A DNA stretch of 64,000 nucleotides from the NCBI RefSeq assembly GCF_000299035.1, contig NZ_AKCS01000005.1, forward strand, positions 62,001 through 126,000. The letters run 5' to 3'. The translations under genes and the position numbers were made by a program. Positions 1,512 through 55,749 of the stretch are shown here, piece after piece. The notes under the pieces are model-generated. The model was given only the letters and a program-made list of their open reading frames with translations, searched no databases and was not told the DNA's origin. Position 1 is the stretch's first letter. Each line of letters opens with the position of its first letter. The stretch is from Bacillus bingmayongensis. Its GTDB lineage: Bacteria; Bacillota; Bacilli; Bacillales; Bacillaceae_G.

Positions 1512-3368
1512 ATGTTAGCTTCACCGTTTTACTTACATACATGGAAAAAGTTTGTTGATGAAGGTGTGCTCGATTCTACTAGAATAAACAAAAGAATTTC
1601 AGAATCTTGGCACCGATGTAAAGAAGCAAATGTCAATCCGCATATGAATAAAGGTCAGAATATTTTAACTTCAAATACGTTTTTTGAACAAAAGAAAAAA
1701 AGCGAAATCTTCCTTGATATAGCCTTACCACACTTGCATAATATGAAAAAAACAATAGATGAATTACAAATGATGGCACTATTAATAGATCCTGATGGAT
1801 ACGTACTTTCTATAACTGGAAATAAAAATACGTTAAAGCAAGCTAAGCATATTAATTTTATTGAAGGTGTGAAATGGACAGAAGCAGCTGTTGGAACGAA
1901 TGCGATTGGTACAGCGCTTGCGATAGAAGAAGCAATTATGATAAGTGGTACAGAACATTATTCTGTCGCGTCTCATAGCTGGAGCTGTGCAGCCGCAACG
2001 ATTCATAATGATGATGGCAAGTTAATTGGTGTCCTTGATTTTTCATGCCCGATTGAATTTTCCCATCCGTATATGCTAGGGATGGTAACATCTATTGCAC
2101 ATGCAATTGAGCGTGAATGTAGCATTCGTGTGCATCAACATGAATTAGAATTAATTCATCGTTTTTTAGATGTAATTGATAGTGACGAGCCATTGATTAT
2201 TTGTAATCATCGGCAAGTTGTCATTTCTGCAAGTAAACCGGTTCGAGAGCAAGTTTCTGATTGGTCACGGATGAAGGTAAATGATTTATTGCAGTACGGG
2301 TTTCAAAGTCGGATGGAGGTACCTGTATATAATAATGATAGGATGATAGGGAAATGTATCTACTTATCAAGAAATCAACCTGAAAAAGTGTATGACTCTT
2401 TTCAAATGGAAAAGACAGTACATTTTCCAGGAGTTGTGGGAATAAGCGATTCGTTCCAGCACACGTTAGAAGAAATCAAGCTTGTTTCTCCGACTGATGC
2501 AAGTGTTTATGTTTGCGGGGAAACTGGTGTTGGGAAAGAGTATGTTGCAAGAGCAATTCACGAGAATAGTACAAGAAAAAACGGTCCATTTGTAGCTGTT
2601 AACTGCGGAGCGTTGCCAAAGGAATTAATGGAGAGCGAACTGTTTGGGTATGGAGAAGGAGCCTTTACAGGTGCCCGCCGCCAAGGATACAAAGGAAAAT
2701 TCGAACAAGCAAATGGTGGAACGATTTTTCTTGATGAAATAGGGGAAGTTCCGCCCGAAATGCAAGTAGCACTTCTACGTGTTTTACAAGAGCGTAAAGT
2801 AACACCGATTGGAAGCACGAGAGAAGTGCCAGTGGATATTCGCGTCATTACTGCAACGCACCGTGATTTACTGCAGTTAGTAGAAGAAGGGAAATTCCGC
2901 CAAGATTTATACTATCGTTTACATGTATATCCTATTTATGTACCTTCTTTATGTGAAAGAAAAGAGGATATTCCATATTTTATTCAAGACTTTTGTAAAA
3001 AGAAAGACTGGGATGTTCAATTCCCATCTAGTATTTGTAATCAGTTTCTACAGCATGAATGGCCAGGAAATATACGCGAATTGTTAAATATGTTAGAACG
3101 TATATATATTCTCTCGCAAGGACGAGAAATATGTGAAAAGCAAATTTCTTTCTTATTACAAACAATGCATGAAAATCAAAAAGGTCTTGAATTAAAAGAA
3201 CAAAAAGACGTTAAGCCAGAACATACATTAACCTTCCGTGAAAAAATACAGCGTGACGGAATGATTGAAGCGCTTCAAAAAACAAAGGGAAATGTATCGC
3301 TTGCGGCAAAACTATTAGATGTCCCGCGTAGTACGTTTTATAAACGAATGCAGCGATTTCAGTTGTAA
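1512..3368 (+). CDS. acoR: Sigma-54-dependent activator, AcoR-like
   Basis: Bacterial enhancer-binding protein of 618 residues that should open sigma-54 promoters, in B. subtilis AcoR those for acetoin breakdown. An N-terminal GAF-type sensory region (about 60-200) is followed by a central AAA+ ATPase with Walker A GETGVGKE near 335, Walker B GGTIFLDEIGE near 404 and the sigma-54-contacting GAFTGA loop near 383. A Fis-type helix-turn-helix ends the protein (about 590-615, GNVSLAAKLLDVPRSTFYKR). The N-terminal sequence (TWKKFVDEGVLD, ESWHRCKEANVNP) resembles AcoR. No acoABCL genes are in the window, so the target is inferred. The promoter carries a cre-like site. Confidence 0.85.
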   Translation: MLASPFYLHTWKKFVDEGVLDSTRINKRISESWHRCKEANVNPHMNKGQNILTSNTFFEQKKKSEIFLDIALPHLHNMKKTIDELQMMALLIDPDGYVLSITGNKNTLKQAKHINFIEGVKWTEAAVGTNAIGTALAIEEAIMISGTEHYSVASHSWSCAAATIHNDDGKLIGVLDFSCPIEFSHPYMLGMVTSIAHAIERECSIRVHQHELELIHRFLDVIDSDEPLIICNHRQVVISASKPVREQVSDWSRMKVNDLLQYGFQSRMEVPVYNNDRMIGKCIYLSRNQPEKVYDSFQMEKTVHFPGVVGISDSFQHTLEEIKLVSPTDASVYVCGETGVGKEYVARAIHENSTRKNGPFVAVNCGALPKELMESELFGYGEGAFTGARRQGYKGKFEQANGGTIFLDEIGEVPPEMQVALLRVLQERKVTPIGSTREVPVDIRVITATHRDLLQLVEEGKFRQDLYYRLHVYPIYVPSLCERKEDIPYFIQDFCKKKDWDVQFPSSICNQFLQHEWPGNIRELLNMLERIYILSQGREICEKQISFLLQTMHENQKGLELKEQKDVKPEHTLTFREKIQRDGMIEALQKTKGNVSLAAKLLDVPRSTFYKRMQRFQL

Positions 3369-24851: not shown

Positions 24852-26399
24852 ATGAGGACGAGAAAACGAATAGGGAATAAATTATTACTTGTAAGTACAA
24901 TTTTTGCGATAAGCATTCCGACTGTTATATATGCGGAAGAAACAACTACACATACGAAATTCTCCATCGCACCTGGTTTGAATGAGATGAAAAATACAGA
25001 TGAACTGAAAACAAGTTTTTATCCTGATTTATTTATGAATTCGTATAATAATCCATTATTCAGCCAGCAATTAACCTCAATGTTAAAAGAAACAAACACA
25101 AATATTAAGGAAGTAGAAAATACCAGCGATGAAACCCCTTTTATATCTACTACTCTTAAATTTATTCGTGATATGAATACTGAAAATTATAAATCTGCAT
25201 TTGATTTAACTTCTCGATCTTTGCAAAAGGTAATATCTGAAAAATGGTTGGAAAACTATTGGAAGGGACTCCCGCTACAATTACAAGCAGGTCATTTTAT
25301 TGGAATCGGGGAAGTGAAACAAAAAGAAACAAATTCCGTTCATACAAATGTAGAAATCGGATTAATTTTTGAACAATTCACTGTGCCTTTACTAATTAAA
25401 TTGAATCCATCTGGAAAAATAGATGATTTTCAACTTAGCATGTCGTTTAGTTCTGTTGCAGAACGCCCATCATATAGTAAGCCTGAATCATTTGTTGAAA
25501 AAGAAGTAGTAGTTGGAAGTGGCGCGTTTCCATTACCAGGAACATTGTCTGTTCCGAAGGGGGCTGGACCTTTTCCAGTGGTTATTCTTGTTCAAGGATC
25601 TGGAGCCAGTGATAAGGATGAAACTGCTTTTGCATTAAAACCGTTTCGTGATCTAGCTGAAGGTCTTGCTTCAAAAGGAATTGCTGTCCTTCGTTATAAT
25701 AAACGAACGTACGAACATACCTTAAAAACACAATTAAGCCCTTTTTACACAGTTGATAAAGAGACAACAGATGATGCCCTCCTTGCGACTCGTTTTCTGC
25801 AAAATCAACCAGGGATAGACAAGAATCAAATTTATATTCTCGGCCATAGCCAAGGTGGAATGATGGTCCCGCAAATGATTGAAAAAGATCAAAACAAAAA
25901 CATTGCTGGGGCAATTGTGATGGGAGGGCCAGCTCGCACGATCCAAGATGTTGTTTTAGATCAATTTGATTACTTGTTTTCTATTGGAGGAATGAAACCT
26001 GAAGAATATAAGTTTTACAAATCGCAATTTGAATTATTAAATGATCCTAATTTCTCTAGCCAGAATCCTCCAAAAGATTTTTATTTAGGCTCACCAGTAT
26101 TTTGGGATTCTATCCGTAAAATTAAAGCAGCAGAAATGTCCAGGGAACAAAAGACACCGCTTTTTATTATTCAAGGAGAAAGGGACTATCAAGTTCAATC
26201 CAAAATTGAAATCCCCCTTTGGAAAGAACAACTTAAAAATCGTGATAATATAGATTATCGACTTTATCCAAAGTTAAATCACTTCTTTACAGAAGGGGAT
26301 GGGGAATTGAGTAAACCAGAAGAATATAATAGACCTGCCAATATTCCTGAATATGTTATAAATGATATTGCTACTTGGGTGCAAGGAAGATCGAAATAA
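24852..26399 (+). CDS. Secreted alpha/beta hydrolase with N-terminal DUF3887-like domain
   Basis: 515 residues from ATG 24852, selected because TTGGAGGA ends 10 bases before it; an upstream in-frame ATG (24792) lacks a binding site. There is a signal peptide (about 1-29, ending IYAEE). An N-terminal NTF2-like/DUF3887-type domain (about 75-190) is followed by an alpha/beta hydrolase domain with nucleophile LGHSQGGM and C-terminal histidine in KLNHFFTEG. Predicted exported esterase or peptidase-like enzyme; substrate unknown. Confidence 0.82.
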   Translation: MRTRKRIGNKLLLVSTIFAISIPTVIYAEETTTHTKFSIAPGLNEMKNTDELKTSFYPDLFMNSYNNPLFSQQLTSMLKETNTNIKEVENTSDETPFISTTLKFIRDMNTENYKSAFDLTSRSLQKVISEKWLENYWKGLPLQLQAGHFIGIGEVKQKETNSVHTNVEIGLIFEQFTVPLLIKLNPSGKIDDFQLSMSFSSVAERPSYSKPESFVEKEVVVGSGAFPLPGTLSVPKGAGPFPVVILVQGSGASDKDETAFALKPFRDLAEGLASKGIAVLRYNKRTYEHTLKTQLSPFYTVDKETTDDALLATRFLQNQPGIDKNQIYILGHSQGGMMVPQMIEKDQNKNIAGAIVMGGPARTIQDVVLDQFDYLFSIGGMKPEEYKFYKSQFELLNDPNFSSQNPPKDFYLGSPVFWDSIRKIKAAEMSREQKTPLFIIQGERDYQVQSKIEIPLWKEQLKNRDNIDYRLYPKLNHFFTEGDGELSKPEEYNRPANIPEYVINDIATWVQGRSK

Positions 26400-26459
26400 A
26401 AAATAGGAACAGTATCATTTAATAACGATTTTCTACATTTAAGATAAAATCATTTTTTT

Positions 26460-26488
26460 TTGAAAAACACATATAATCATAGTATGAT
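26460..26488 (+). promoter_or_regulatory. Promoter of the mph leader transcript
   Basis: TTGAAA (26460-26465), 17 bases, TATGAT (26483-26488). Transcription would start near 26495, just before the leader ORF. Confidence 0.75.
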
Positions 26489-26522
26489 GTAAGCAACTAT
26501 AAAGAACGGAGGGATTTACCTA

Positions 26523-26564
26523 ATGGCATTTTCCAGATTCCGAATGGATACTTTGAGCTGCTAA
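26523..26564 (+). CDS. Leader peptide MAFSRFRMDTLSC (candidate macrolide sensor)
   Basis: 13 codons with a strong binding site (GGAGGG, 26508-26513). Codons 5-7 encode Arg-Phe-Arg, which fits the +X+ (Arg/Lys-X-Arg/Lys) pattern known to cause macrolide-dependent ribosome stalling, as in the Arg-Leu-Arg of the ErmD leader. It sits between a good promoter and a terminator, upstream of a macrolide phosphotransferase gene. The role is inferred from motif and context. Confidence 0.6.
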   Translation: MAFSRFRMDTLSC

Positions 26565-26651
26565 TTGAATAGTGCTACAAAGGCTCTGCCTGTGCGCAGG
26601 GTAATCGGAATTGGTCTGCCTAATTTAAGGTAAACCCTATTTGGGTGACGT

Positions 26652-26679
26652 AAAAAGAGAACGAAACTACTCTCTTTTT
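26652..26679 (+). terminator. First leader terminator upstream of mph
   Basis: AAAAAGAGA / TCTCTTTTT stem with a 10-base loop, ending in U-rich sequence. Confidence 0.75.
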
Positions 26680-26877
26680 GATGTCTTTAAAAATATAATA
26701 AACAATGTCATATGATTCAGAAACATTTTTATTTTTTGATAAAGTTTTCTAGGTGATAAGATGTGAATCATAAATTATTTTATTCTATCTATAGACCATT
26801 CATAGGACTGAGAAAACCTTTATTTATAAACAAGAGGGTTCTTTCTGTTTATTTGTAATAGCTTATTCCGTTTACGT

Positions 26878-26906
26878 AAAACACAGGCAACTAGCCTGTG
26901 TTTTTG
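26878..26906 (+). terminator. Second leader terminator, 36 bases before mph
   Basis: AAAACACAGGC-aacta-GCCTGTGTTTT, 11-bp perfect arms and T-run. It lies directly upstream of the mph ribosome-binding site, so read-through must be regulated or another promoter used. A start-stop ORF (ATG TGA at 26761-26766 after AGGTGA) lies between the two terminators. Confidence 0.8.
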
Positions 26907-26941
26907 TGCTTATATGAAGAAATTTAAAGGAGTGTTTATCT

Positions 26942-27862
26942 ATGAGAAATGTAAATGAACAGAAAAGTATAGAAGAAATTTTAAAGATCGCTGAAAAGAA
27001 TGGCTTACAATTGAATAAAGAAAGCGCTGAATTAAACGAATCAGGAATGGACTTTCAAGTGGTGTTCGCTACTGATGAACAGGGGAGTTCATGGGTGCTT
27101 CGCAAACCAAGAAGAGCAGATGTCATTGAAAGAGGAGCGTTAGAATGGAAAATACTAGGGCTTGTTCAAAAGTATTTACCTGTTGCAGTACCAAACTGGA
27201 AAATCAATACAACAGAATTAATTGCGTATCCATTAGTAAAGGGTGATCCTGCTGCTGTGATTGATTTAGAAATACAAAATTATGTGTGGCGCATTCAAAA
27301 TAATCCACCATCTATAACGTTTGTTCGATCTTTAGCAGAATCGCTTGTTGCCTTGCATTCGATTGATCATAATGAGGCGAATAAACATGGAATTGAAGTT
27401 CTTCAACCTGCTGAAGCAAAGCAATTGTTAATAGACAGGATGCATCAAATAAAGTCGCAACTTGGTGTGTCAGGTGAACTATGGGAGCGCTGGCAAAAAT
27501 GGCTTGCAGATAAAACGTATTGGCCAAAGCATTCTGCATTTGTTCATGGCGATTTACATCCGCCGCATATTTTAGTTGATAAAAATACCAAAGTAACCGG
27601 TCTGCTAGATTGGACGGAAGCGAAAGTAACGGATCCAGCTACGGACTTTACTCTTTATCTCACAATCTTTGGAGAGGATAATTTGAAAGTATTGTTAAAC
27701 GAATATGAAAAAGCAGGAGGAAAAGTTTGGCCGAGAATGTTTGAACACATTATTGAACTTGGTGCTGCTTATCCGGTGATGATTGGATTATTTGCTCTTC
27801 AGACGAAGGAGGAAGCACATTTGAAGATGGCGCGTGGAGCTTTGGGAGTGAATGAGAAATAG
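26942..27862 (+). CDS. mph: Macrolide 2'-phosphotransferase (Mph family)
   Basis: 306-residue aminoglycoside-phosphotransferase-fold enzyme. The catalytic loop is FVHGDLHPPHILVD, with His in place of the usual Asn as in Mph enzymes, and the metal-binding aspartate is in GLLDWTEAKVTDPATDF. The N-terminal lobe carries WVLRKPRR with the ATP lysine. Mph enzymes phosphorylate the desosamine 2'-OH of 14- to 16-membered macrolides; B. cereus group chromosomes carry such a gene (mphL in resistance catalogues), and I believe this is that type. AAAGGAGTG precedes the ATG. Regulation by the upstream leader is likely. Confidence 0.88.
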   Translation: MRNVNEQKSIEEILKIAEKNGLQLNKESAELNESGMDFQVVFATDEQGSSWVLRKPRRADVIERGALEWKILGLVQKYLPVAVPNWKINTTELIAYPLVKGDPAAVIDLEIQNYVWRIQNNPPSITFVRSLAESLVALHSIDHNEANKHGIEVLQPAEAKQLLIDRMHQIKSQLGVSGELWERWQKWLADKTYWPKHSAFVHGDLHPPHILVDKNTKVTGLLDWTEAKVTDPATDFTLYLTIFGEDNLKVLLNEYEKAGGKVWPRMFEHIIELGAAYPVMIGLFALQTKEEAHLKMARGALGVNEK

Positions 27863-27983
27863 TAAATATGCTATCGTGTGAAGTATATGCGTTATGAGTG
27901 AAAGTATAATCGTATTAAAATGGTATCTTCAAGTCTCGGATCTCTTGTTCATCACACCCTTGCAGATATGAAAATAATGACAA

Positions 27984-28012
27984 GCATCCCTGCTAGGTAG
28001 GGGCAGGGATGC
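27984..28012. repeat. Perfect 10-bp inverted repeat
   Basis: GCATCCCTGC-taggtaggg-GCAGGGATGC. No strong T-run on either side. Confidence 0.6.
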
Positions 28013-29574: not shown

Positions 29575-29746
29575 AAAAAATTCAAAACAGATTATAAGAA
29601 GGAGTTTTTTATATGACAGATTGTATAATTATATTTAAGTGCAGATATTATATTTAAATATTTTTTTATAAAGAATATCTGGTCGTAAATATTAAAAAAA
29701 TACAATGGTATTAAGTTCTATAGTTACAATTGTTGGAGGAGAAAAC

Positions 29747-31288
29747 ATGAATTTACCTAATTTATCTTTGTTTTTTGGAGCAGGAGCAGAAATTGGATAT
29801 GGTTTACCCTCAGGAGGAAAATTTGCTTTAGAGATTTTTAGAATGTCTAATGATCAAGATAAGGAAGCTTTTCGTGAGCAAATTAGAAATATAGAACCTA
29901 GATCTCAAATTGCTGCAAAATGGCTGCCAGATAATTATAATACTAAGAGATTAAATGTTTTTGGAAAGGGGGAATTTGAAGGCCTCATTGCTTCTAGCTT
30001 AGAACATAGACGGGCTAACATATTAGAGTATCTCGAGAATTTTGATAATAAAGTTTCAGATTTATTAAGAAATTGGCATGTTACAGAAGAGATTATTAGA
30101 AATAAATATTTTGATGAAACTGAAGAACAGATCGGCGATGTATTATACAATCAATTAATTCGGTTAAATGAAAAATTAGCATCACGTGTACAACTTTTCG
30201 AATCTCATTATTTTTCTGCTTTTTTAAGATTACTAGAAAAATTTCCACAAGATCGATACTTAAAGAGAATTGTAAGGGCTTATTTAGAATTATTATTAGG
30301 AGCTTTTGGACAGAGCTTAGTTTCCCAACTAAATGAAGAGTTATTTACAGAAGCACCAGATGAAATTACAGTATTTGATGATTTAACAGGTATTTTTTCT
30401 CTGAATTATCAAGGGGTAGGTCAAACAGGAATGGAAATCGTTATTGAAGAACAACCTCTTGAAATAAATGAACAAACAGAAGGATTAACTATCTTCAAAG
30501 AATTGGGACGTAATATTTTAGAAGAAATCTATTGTCAGGCTATGGATTATCAAACATTAATCGATAGTCATTTTGCATACTTGTATAAACCAAAAGCCCA
30601 TTGGGCGAAATTTACTCGAATTGGTATTTTTCTTCACACAGTCCAACGTTATATAAAAAATCATGTTAAAGTCGATGATGCAAAAATTTCTGAAGGGCCA
30701 GGCTATTATCATGATCTTTTACAATTAAAAGATCATTTTCACGTACAAGCGATAGGTACAACAAATTATAATAATTTTGTTAGTCAAGTAACTGCTAACC
30801 TTGGGCTCGAGGATATTCCGATATATCATTTGAATGGAAGTGTTGATGAATTCTATGATCCATATAAAAATACAATATTAAAAGAACCTACTGTGGAGGA
30901 GAGTGGTGGGAAAATACTGGTTCCATTTATGTTTACCCAAAGCGGGATAAAACCTTTGACTTCAGTGTCTATGTCGAGAAAATATGTGGATTTATATGAT
31001 CATTTTGTTAATTCTGATATCATTTGTATAATTGGTTATGGTTTTAATGGTGATGATGGACATATCAACGGGATGTTAAGAAGCCTAGTGGAAGAAGAAA
31101 ATAAAAAACTTATTATTATCCATTATAAGACTGATGGTAGTAACAAGCACCAATTATTAAGACAATATCAAGAAAAGTTGAGATTACATACATCAACAAA
31201 TTTAAAAGTTTACATTGTAGATCACCATCGTACATCTAATGAATCTATATGGTATGAAAAAATAGTAGAAGAATTTGCTATTGTTTAA
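29747..31288 (+). CDS. SIR2-like domain protein, candidate phage-defence NADase
   Basis: 513 residues from ATG 29747 (TTGGAGGAG just upstream; an in-frame ATG at 29705 lacks a site). SIR2-fold NAD-binding landmarks are split across the protein: LFFGAGAEIGYGLPSGGKFA near the N terminus, AIGTTNYNNFV, YHLNGSVDEF and IIGYGFNGDDGHI near the C terminus. Between the first and the others lies a 300-residue helical insert. SIR2 proteins in Thoeris, DSR, SIR2-HerA and pAgo systems deplete NAD+ on phage infection. No partner gene (ThsB, HerA, Argonaute) is adjacent, so this would act alone. It has no membrane segment. The 500 bases after it hold no intact gene. Confidence 0.8.
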   Translation: MNLPNLSLFFGAGAEIGYGLPSGGKFALEIFRMSNDQDKEAFREQIRNIEPRSQIAAKWLPDNYNTKRLNVFGKGEFEGLIASSLEHRRANILEYLENFDNKVSDLLRNWHVTEEIIRNKYFDETEEQIGDVLYNQLIRLNEKLASRVQLFESHYFSAFLRLLEKFPQDRYLKRIVRAYLELLLGAFGQSLVSQLNEELFTEAPDEITVFDDLTGIFSLNYQGVGQTGMEIVIEEQPLEINEQTEGLTIFKELGRNILEEIYCQAMDYQTLIDSHFAYLYKPKAHWAKFTRIGIFLHTVQRYIKNHVKVDDAKISEGPGYYHDLLQLKDHFHVQAIGTTNYNNFVSQVTANLGLEDIPIYHLNGSVDEFYDPYKNTILKEPTVEESGGKILVPFMFTQSGIKPLTSVSMSRKYVDLYDHFVNSDIICIIGYGFNGDDGHINGMLRSLVEEENKKLIIIHYKTDGSNKHQLLRQYQEKLRLHTSTNLKVYIVDHHRTSNESIWYEKIVEEFAIV

Positions 31289-32583: not shown

Positions 32584-32607
32584 ATCATAGTTAAATTTCA
32601 ATAATCA

Positions 32608-32897
32608 AAAATCGTTGACTAAGAAGAGTACGTTTAATTGATGCGTTACAGAGAGCTGGGGTTGGTGCGATCCAGTACGATAGATTATGCCGAATGGACT
32701 TAGGAGAGGTACGCTGAAACATTAGGAGTATGCGACCCGGGTTCCGCCGTTACAAGGATGAGGATATCGAATTTATTTTTCCGTATCCAAAAACGAGAGG
32801 GTTCTGAGTCTATGTGATAAAGAACCAAAAGAGGTGGCACCACGGTATAATCGTATATATCGCCCTCTACATGCATACAGCATGTAGAGGGCTTTTT
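32608..32897 (+). promoter_or_regulatory. T-box riboswitch, tryptophan specifier
   Basis: Classic tRNA-sensing leader. Stem I contains AGAG and GGTTGGTGCGATCC, the specifier loop carries GAA-UGG-AC (UGG at 32695-32697, tryptophan), and the T-box proper AGAGGTGGCACCACGGT lies at 32830-32846. The terminator GCCCTCTACATGC/GCATGTAGAGGGC plus T5 is at 32862-32897. Uncharged tRNA-Trp should favour the antiterminator and allow transcription of trpB. Confidence 0.93.
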
Positions 32898-32950: not shown

Positions 32951-34141
32951 ATGAATTTATTACAAGCGGAAAATGGATATTTCGGAGATTTTGGGGGTAG
33001 TTTTGTACCAGAACAGCTACAAGAGGCTTTAATTCACCTAGAAAATGCGTTTAATCAATACAAAGATGATCCAGAGTTTATAAATGAATATGAATACTAT
33101 CTTAAAGAATATGTAGGGCGCCCAAATCCGTTGTATTATGCGAAACGTTTGAGTGAAGAGATTCGTGGTGCAAAAATCTATCTTAAAAGAGAAGACCTTA
33201 ATCATACAGGAGCCCATAAAATTAACAATGTATTAGGGCAAATTTTACTCGCGAAGAGAATGGGAGCAAAACGCATCATTGCAGAAACAGGAGCAGGGCA
33301 GCACGGAGTGGCTACAGCTACTGCATGTGCGATGTTCGGAATAGATTGTACGATTTATATGGGAGGAATGGATACAGAACGCCAACAATTAAATGTATTT
33401 CGCATGGAACTATTAGGGGCTAAGGTAATTGCTGTTCAAGAAGGAGGACGAACTCTTAAAGAAGCAGTAGATGCGGCACTTGAAGATTACGCTCAAAACT
33501 ATGAAAGCACATTTTATTTATTAGGTTCTGCACTGGGACCACATCCGTATCCAACGATTGTTCGTCATTTCCAAGCTGTAATTGGAAGAGAAGCAAGAGC
33601 GCAACATATTGAAAAGGAACAACGTTTACCTGACTATTTGGTTGCTTGTGTAGGTGGAGGAAGTAATGCGATTGGGCTATTTGCCCCATTTTATAATGAT
33701 AAAGAAGTAAAAATGGTAGGTGTTGAACCAGGTGGTAAAGGGATTGAAACAGGGATGCATGCAGCACCTCTTACAGCAGGAGAGCCTGGTATCATCCATG
33801 GATTTAAGTGTTATATGATGAAAGACAAAAATGGAGAAATTGCAGAGGCGCACTCCATTGCTGCGGGACTGGACTACCAAGGTGTTGGACCAGAGCATAG
33901 TTATTATAAAGAAACTGGTCGTGCAGAATATGTAGCAATTAATGATAAGGAAGCATTAGAAGCTTTTCATAAGTTATCTCGTGTTGAAGGGATTATTCCT
34001 GCATTGGAAAGTTCTCATGCGGTGGCGTATGCTATAAAGTTAGCAGCAACCTTACGAAACGATCAAAGTATTATTGTGAATTTATCTGGGCGTGGTGATA
34101 AAGATGTACAACAAGTATTTGAAATGAACAACCAAAAATAA
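32951..34141 (+). CDS. trpB: Tryptophan synthase beta chain
   Basis: PLP enzyme joining indole and serine to L-tryptophan. 396 residues of the TrpB1 type: [14 protein letters not shown] start, PLP lysine in HTGAHKINN, phosphate-binding GGGSNAIG and the C-terminal LSGRGDKD. It is solitary, with its own Trp T-box, and no trpA beside it. It may partner with the main trp operon's TrpA or scavenge indole. GGAGGA precedes the ATG. Confidence 0.95.
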
Positions 34142-55339: not shown

Positions 55340-55749
55340 GCCCAATTCCTCCCGCTAACATGTTTGTAACGTTAATTATTCCATAATTCCGATAAGAATA
55401 CAATGATTTATTTGATAATTTCACATAAAAGTAAAAATAATAAGAAAAATATTGAAATTAATTTGCATTAGTACAATAATACAAATTACAAACGAATACT
55501 TATCTAGAGAGGTGGAGGGAACGGCCCTATGAAACCTCAGCAACCCTTATTTACTACAAATAGGAAGGTGCTAATTCCGCAAAAAGGACAGATTGTCTTT
55601 TGAAAGATAAGAGGATCATATATTCATATGCAAATGGCCTCTTATAGCAGAGGTCATTTTTTATTGGGGGGAGGGTAGTGAAGACTCATAATTTAGTATT
55701 TTTTTACATAGGACTAATAGAAACTAACTAGAATGAGAGGGGAATTCAT
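55340..55749. other. Region holding the S-box leader
   Basis: The 410-base gap is mostly the S-box (55499-55611) and its terminator (55632-55662); a short unstructured stretch precedes the ECF S-component ATG. Confidence 0.7.
55499..55662 (+). promoter_or_regulatory. SAM-I (S-box) riboswitch
   Basis: Conserved core: AGAGAGGTGGAGGGA, GGCCCTATGAAACCTCAGCAACC and AAGGTGCTAATTCC. P1 pairs CTTATC (55499-55504) with GATAAG (55606-55611). The terminator ATGGCCTCT/AGAGGTCAT plus T-run is at 55632-55662. ATAAGAGG (55607-55614) can instead pair with CCTCTTAT (55638-55645), the antiterminator, which excludes P1 and terminator. High SAM should switch off the transporter. Confidence 0.95.

Follow-up and report, generated by a model that had tools for sequence, protein, structure and literature searches.

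A gene for a macrolide 2'-phosphotransferase (mph) in a stretch of 64,000 nucleotides (nt) from Bacillus bingmayongensis (contig NZ_AKCS01000005.1, positions 62,001–126,000; hereafter, the window) is preceded by a leader RNA. The leader spans window positions 26500–26650 and, as read directly from the sequence, codes for an open reading frame (ORF) of 13 codons, MAFSRFRMDTLSC. Comparative sequence analysis indicated that it is a member of a conserved RNA class, and we consider it likely to be a macrolide-inducible transcription attenuator of mph. The ORF with its +X+ motif (R/K-X-R/K), a resting fold (OFF), a distal terminator module (T2) and family-wide long-range complementarity were all supported by this comparison. 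From the known stalling of ErmDL and from mutants of the HflXr leader we infer stalling and induction in the window, and drug specificity and the order of events are likewise inferred.

Briefly, without drug, ribosomes would complete the ORF and leave, the strand from the Shine-Dalgarno (SD) sequence to codon 7 would pair with 26605–26638 (OFF) and hide UCGGAAU, and T2 would form before mph. With a macrolide, a ribosome would stall with Arg7 in its A site, covering the codons AUUCCGA. UCGGAAU and hairpin P3 could then pair (ON) with a look-alike AUUCCG box and the CACAGGC arm at T2, so that T2 would be blocked from forming and mph would be transcribed. The codons and the T2 box would thus compete for the same leader bases.

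The leader ORF and its relatives

Window positions 26441–26950 carry a promoter-like sequence, an SD, the 13-codon ORF, a structured stretch, two terminator-like hairpins (T1 and T2) and the start of mph (Table 1). An initial annotation, made from the sequence alone, had listed the promoter, the binding site, the ORF and a macrolide phosphotransferase gene, and all of these were present. The promoter match was not significant on its own, as a scan returned 9 sites where 7.8 were expected; a −10-like hexamer (at least 4/6 matches) nevertheless stood 20–34 nt 5' of the SD in 105/114 leaders, compared to 46/114 at control offsets of 55–69. A promoter of its own for mph, which the same annotation had named, together with unchanged read-through under macrolide, as evidence that would count against attenuation, was not found by the scan between T2 and mph (26906–26941). 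The mph protein scored 325.7 bits for Mph(C) and 313.9 bits for Mph(B), both under the NCBIfam curated cut-offs, and also matched Pfam APH. T2 stands 36 nt 5' of mph.

Table 1. Features of the mph leader region, with window positions and the basis for each.
Feature	Position	Strand	Basis or remark
Sigma-A type promoter TTGAAA-17-TATGAT	26460–26488	+	10/12 match; not significant alone; −10 position kept in relatives
SD GGAGGG of leader ORF	26508–26513	+	sequence; conserved in alignment A1
Leader ORF MAFSRFRMDTLSC	26523–26564	+	ATG 26523, TAA 26562–26564; sequence; homologous ORFs in relatives
Arg5-Phe6-Arg7 (+X+) codons	26535–26543	+	bases also part of OFF helices
OFF structure, 5' strand, SD to stall codons	26510–26543	+	single folds of 36 leaders; covariation in alignment A3
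Hairpin P2 around stop codon	26551–26582	+	folds, covariation
Hairpin P3	26583–26602	+	folds, covariation
OFF 3' strand, partner of 5' strand	26605–26638	+	folds, covariation
T1, AU-rich terminator-like hairpin	26651–26680	+	−7.9 kcal/mol; no antiterminator predicted in window
Proposed ON helix, leader strand GCCUGUG ... GUAAUCGGAAU	26588–26611	+	pairing predictions, swap tests
T2 box AUUCCGUUUAC, proposed partner of 26601–26611	26865–26875	+	pairing predictions, swap tests
T2, strong terminator; 5' arm CACAGGC 26882–26888, ON partner 26588–26594	26878–26905	+	−15.9 kcal/mol, z −4.0
Macrolide 2'-phosphotransferase gene mph	26942–27862	+	protein-family matches

No family in Rfam 15 matched the leader. 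With E up to 10, the region 26400–26960 gave three weak matches, all at or beyond 26787 and none near its gathering score; a known Rfam riboswitch or T-box over the leader was rejected on these grounds.

When genome contigs were searched with the mph protein, 64 loci were returned, the nearest being 62% identical (B. paralicheniformis); no title among the 64 named a member of the B. cereus group. In the B. licheniformis group and in several Paenibacillus, the same leader was clearly visible by eye 5' of mph. Used as a DNA query, the leader matched 56/397 Bacillales genomes, four of them over query positions 158–186 only, which we treated as chance. Neither of these searches gave a near-identical relative. 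With the leader DNA there was no match in plasmids at E 1e-5, and a strict leader pattern found none in viral contigs.

A covariance model, R1, was built from 36 aligned leaders (A1), with the window among these training sequences, and scored the window leader at 125.8 bits. Its search of the source sequences covered 94 of 120 (the window and 93 of 119 loci) and gave 65 matches. Of the 42 loci covered that came from the mph protein search, 14 were matched; in two of them, L011 and L012, the leader (~1270–1480) precedes hflX and mph follows at 3001, as if hflX and mph formed one unit. In genomes, R1 matched 140/397 Bacillales and 101/198 Paenibacillales (E up to 0.001), with E-values that are rough and a Bacillales sample of which a part supplied training sequences. 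Merging duplicates among the 65 source matches and 60 from a further R1 search left 114 distinct leaders. One of these, L145 from B. paralicheniformis, lies outside the training set, scored 94.8 bits and codes for MTHSMRLRFPTLNQ, the ErmDL peptide; its downstream gene matched Erm and RrnaAD models.

The initial annotation had read codons 5–7 (Arg-Phe-Arg) as a +X+ motif, a reading that extends to the family: the motif was found in the leader ORF of 103/114 distinct leaders, including the window, compared to 233/2280 shuffled cores. The ORF, +X+ and the helices that contain its codons were conserved far outside the window; the annotation had proposed such a check for the B. cereus group. The 11 leaders lacking the motif include RLH and RLY variants (L161, L176), an NQ type (L039, L017, L028) and L082, counted here as its ORF exceeded the length limit set; in others the choice of ORF is possibly wrong. 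The three NQ-type leaders are weak R1 matches before mph with a peptide core of Asn-Gln-Ser/Pro-Leu instead of +X+. Six Oceanobacillus mph loci (L026, L041, L049, L051, L054, L055) looked similar by eye, with peptides of the MIDNQSLR type and no +X+, and gave no R1 match. The Asn-Gln-Ser/Pro-Leu core may represent another stall motif, carried by a related RNA.

An Arg-rich motif might also point to an ORF that senses arginine or general translation stress and not macrolides. We regard this as hardly conceivable and rejected arginine sensing, since the ORF contains no more than two Arg codons and the genes downstream are mostly of macrolide/lincosamide resistance classes. A leader of the tlrB type was rejected as well, as RXR is internal here (codons 5–7 of 13) and not C-terminal.

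The OFF fold

The 141-nt window leader folded at −47.7 kcal/mol (z −3.2), with 2/200 shuffles as low. When the 36 leaders were folded singly, one architecture emerged, in which the segment running from the SD to about codon 7 is paired to a 3' strand, so enclosing two hairpins; the helix between codon strand and 3' strand, together with P3, was present by eye in 36/36 folds. Exceptions were an unpaired SD in L085 and a different P2 in L083. In leaders with longer peptides (L066, L071, L084, L113), the extra N-terminal codons formed an added hairpin inside the OFF helix and the architecture was kept.

Comparative evidence indicates that this resting fold covaries strongly. On alignment A3 (60 sequences), which was fitted to the model and so leans to it, and some loci of which are also in the training set, 21/38 pairs changed on both sides and 84.9% of cells were paired. 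None of 500 shuffles reached any of five measures, and slid versions paired at most 48.7%. RNAalifold found hardly any structure on a MAFFT alignment, an outcome probably due to misaligned ends. The complementarity of ATTCCGA (26537–26543, in the stall codons) to TCGGAAT (26605–26611), to which the initial annotation had drawn attention, was confirmed. The stall codons sit in OFF helices 2 and 3, which were 84.3% and 72.4% paired in A3.

The OFF fold also sequesters the leader's own SD, as might be expected if the leader acted mainly on translation or messenger stability, for example through a stalled ribosome that stabilises the 5' end. Translational control has been described for erm genes (PMC8298421) and for tlrB (PMC6851288). 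The SD of mph (26926–26932), however, lies 3' of T2 and is not involved in the leader pairings considered here, and T2 modules precede many different genes; we hold this explanation to be quite unlikely.

The probable switch terminator and the proposed ON helix

The terminator in the initial annotation was the hairpin T1. This hairpin exists, but it is weak (z −3.0) and AU-rich, with its U-run within the stem, and the likelier switch is T2, which lies beyond the region then described and also has U's within its stem. A terminator scan of 26000–28000 listed no terminator, whether T1, T2 or any other. In fold calculations, blocking the 5' strand weakened the window T2 by 7.2 kcal/mol, and the pairing responsible was that of leader 26588–26611 with 26865–26888. 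The corresponding effect was +1.6 to +15.0 kcal/mol in nine further mph loci whose T2 is of the CRCAGGC type (L001–L008, L070; strand-blocking figures for T2 cover 24/27 mph loci).

The same sensor could instead switch T1, with T2 as either an accessory terminator or a constitutive, partial one. The T1 of relatives is mostly richer in GC, and removal of the whole 5' strand freed a T1 antiterminator in most of them (median +5.1 kcal/mol; 76/91 above 1 kcal/mol). These calculations covered 91/114 loci, leaving out 12 without +X+ in the chosen ORF and 11 without a T1 candidate. In the window, by contrast, the weak T1 changed by −1.8 kcal/mol, against +7.2 for T2. We therefore consider a T1 switch in the window unlikely and T2 most likely to be the terminator that is switched.

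A search for a CACAG-like 5' arm, a hairpin and a U-run found T2 modules in 74/114 leaders and in 14/27 of those before mph. The unselected bases 5' of the arm repeatedly read TTCC-N-TTTAC. Pairing of the leader segment with the box of its own locus averaged −13.79 kcal/mol, compared to −11.54 for permuted partners (0/10000 permutations as low) and −6.89 for shuffled ones, and 67/67 loci beat their own shuffles. For the whole helix between leader and own T2 module the values were −28.98 and −24.13 (0/5000, z −11.9, 69 rows), and P3 against the T2 arm alone gave z −7.1 (69 rows); all of these own-pairing permutations are uncorrected for kinship.

At single pairs, counted in the 41/67 rows with a clear register, the first ON pair was C-G in 26 and U-A in 11, with 3 unpaired (0/5000 permutations), and the second (U-A/C-G) was reached in 23/5000. 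The T2 module TTCCGTTTAC-N6-CACAGG, a bipartite element of 22 bases, recurs reverse-complemented with one mismatch at leader 26589–26610; no further copy occurred in the window with 2 or fewer mismatches, and none was expected by chance. The bases CGGAAU (26606–26611) are common to OFF and ON. In L070, L005 and L006, the T2 arm was predicted to shift onto the leader core upon blocking of the 5' strand, with mean pairing rising from 0.02 to 0.78, 0.02 to 0.75 and 0.16 to 0.67, respectively, while the T2 3' arm was withheld.

Several results weigh against a T2 switch of this kind. In the window, own pairing (−25.8 kcal/mol) was no better than that with the boxes of other loci (mean −26.7), and 8/9 ON positions paired, with one U-U mismatch. 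The other seven ON pairs were nearly invariant or indistinct from permutation at 0.05. On the leader tree, the first ON pair changed 4 times on the leader side and 7 times on the box side, so that a lineage-corrected test has no power. A score for unbroken pair runs of leader versus spacer gave z −0.1 in the window and a mean z of 1.1 over 99/114 loci (the 15 without an anchor being left out). With the 3' arm withheld, the window T2 arm also paired with the leader in ribosome-free RNA (0.49 free, 0.53 blocked); the model thus needs kinetic ordering, and the order of transcription must matter. In four mph loci with a T2 of the CACAGAC/CACAGAT type (L137, L139, L140, L141), T2 responded by 0.6, −1.3, 0.1 and 3.6 kcal/mol, and their T1 did respond (7.6, 6.6, 7.4 and 5.6) in the same calculation. 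When a 30-nt ribosome footprint alone was blocked, the T1 effect had a median of 0.0, with 20/91 above 1 kcal/mol.

Predicted exposure of the switch bases (YGGRA) over 99/114 loci was 0.19 in free RNA, and 0.25, 0.42 and 0.49 with the ribosome at the start, stalled and at the stop, respectively; in the window the values were 0.00, 0.80, 0.49 and 0.00. Across the family, exposure in these models does not single out the stall position.

The weak T1, the ON mismatch and an own T2 pairing no better than that with foreign boxes might also mean that the window leader was inherited but has decayed, leaving weak, unregulated expression of mph by read-through. Its ORF, +X+ motif, OFF fold and T2 box are intact, however, and its model score is high, which makes decay very improbable. 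Attenuation through the leader, as the initial annotation had envisaged, is supported by the comparative evidence and by homology to the ErmDL leader, with T2, more probably than T1, as the terminator that drug would control at mph.

Downstream genes, known systems and meaning

A downstream ORF was present in 112/114 leaders, and 108/112 fell into seven clusters: hflX (37), mph (27), ABC ATPases (18), erm (13), mef-like (6), rlmA-like (4) and lmrB-like (3), with 4 others; the use of mph as query biases these counts. The 30 matches in 61 Bacillales genomes drawn evenly preceded mph (9), hflX (5), ABC (5), mef-like (4), erm (2), lmrB-like (2), rlmA-like (1) and one other gene, and one had none. 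Cluster representatives that were scanned matched macrolide-resistance families in NCBIfam and Pfam, with HflX models that cannot tell resistance from housekeeping HflX. Three of the four ABC members scanned were Msr-like ABC-F proteins (L161, L132, L118), and one (L130) resembled a sugar transporter ATPase. On the leader tree, gene class changed at least 26 times, compared to a minimum of 6 and a shuffled mean of 60.5, and well-supported branches alone forced 4 changes for mph and 3 for hflX; this tree is weak, having been built from 107/114 rows and 155 columns by a quick method.

Four R1 matches stood before genes with no obvious macrolide link (L130, L149, L151, L178), namely a sugar-type ABC ATPase, a short-chain dehydrogenase, a dicarboxylate symporter and an alpha/beta hydrolase; some of these may be false matches or misassigned ORFs.

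Elsewhere in the window, the only Rfam matches at the gathering score were a T-box leader at 32606–32870 (RF00230, 124 bits), shortly 5' of a long ORF at 32951 that resembles tryptophan synthase beta on reading its sequence, and a SAM riboswitch at 55497–55613 (RF00162, 87.7 bits). A 527-amino acid (aa) ORF at 29705–31288 had a weak match, under the cut-off, to a SIR2-like domain (PF13289).

The initial annotation cited no description of this leader, yet the class is partly known, as uORFC-6-1, the HflXr leader and the ErmK/ErmD leaders. The text on uORFC-6-1 (PMC8632094, the only paper returned for that name) describes 51 representatives of a Bacillales upstream ORF, primarily before hflX, proposed to sense stalled ribosomes and influence hflX transcription. 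Like the window leader, it has a conserved Arg-X-Arg (there Arg-Leu-Arg) and a covarying structure; by its published description, that structure lies wholly 3' of the ORF start codon, whereas in the window the SD strand takes part in the fold, the target is mph and there is a distal T2 module. In the HflXr/rli80 leader of Listeria, as described in PMC6310831, a short ORF (14 aa, RLR) likewise lies in the region holding an anti-antiterminator; this element, the antiterminator and the terminator were tested by mutants, and attenuation was supported by mutants and RNA sequencing. By its description, it differs in its gene and in the one terminator described there.

Stalling of ErmDL occurs when its second Arg codon occupies the A site (PMC8298421), the ermD leader region has two leader peptides (PMC6333372), and the ermK leader is covered by a review (PMC5418344). 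The ErmD/ErmK leaders share with the window leader a +X+ ORF, a homologous RNA with a T2 module (that coding for MTHSMRLRFPTLNQ) and a terminator between ORF and gene with a predicted alternative pairing, for which the family as a whole gives stronger evidence than the window itself; they differ in the rRNA methylase downstream and in RLR, where the window has RFR. The tlrB (yxjB) leader of B. subtilis also has a terminator and shows RXR-dependent, tylosin-induced stalling. As described in PMC6851288 it differs, however, in carrying RYR at the C-terminal end of a peptide of 9 aa and in a sequestered tlrB SD, and no overlapping antiterminator was identified there. Among the literature matches listed, subscription papers excepted, we recognised no description of the mph leader or of the T2 long-range helix, and a second terminator may already be known for ermK.

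These results tie mph, erm, hflX, ABC-F, mef-like, rlmA-like and lmrB-like genes to one sensor class, and we propose for it a specific, testable RNA switch between two states, each of which has comparative support across the family. We lean slightly towards a single portable sensor, consisting of a +X+ leader, a strand for which the codons compete and a distal terminator, that serves at least seven resistance families in Bacillales and Paenibacillales and in which the stall codons mimic the distal partner of the antiterminator. Covering the codons would thereby pass the same bases to a terminator ~250 nt away. If mph is attenuated as proposed, this chromosomal gene would be silent until drug is present, and inducer-free susceptibility tests and expression surveys could miss it.
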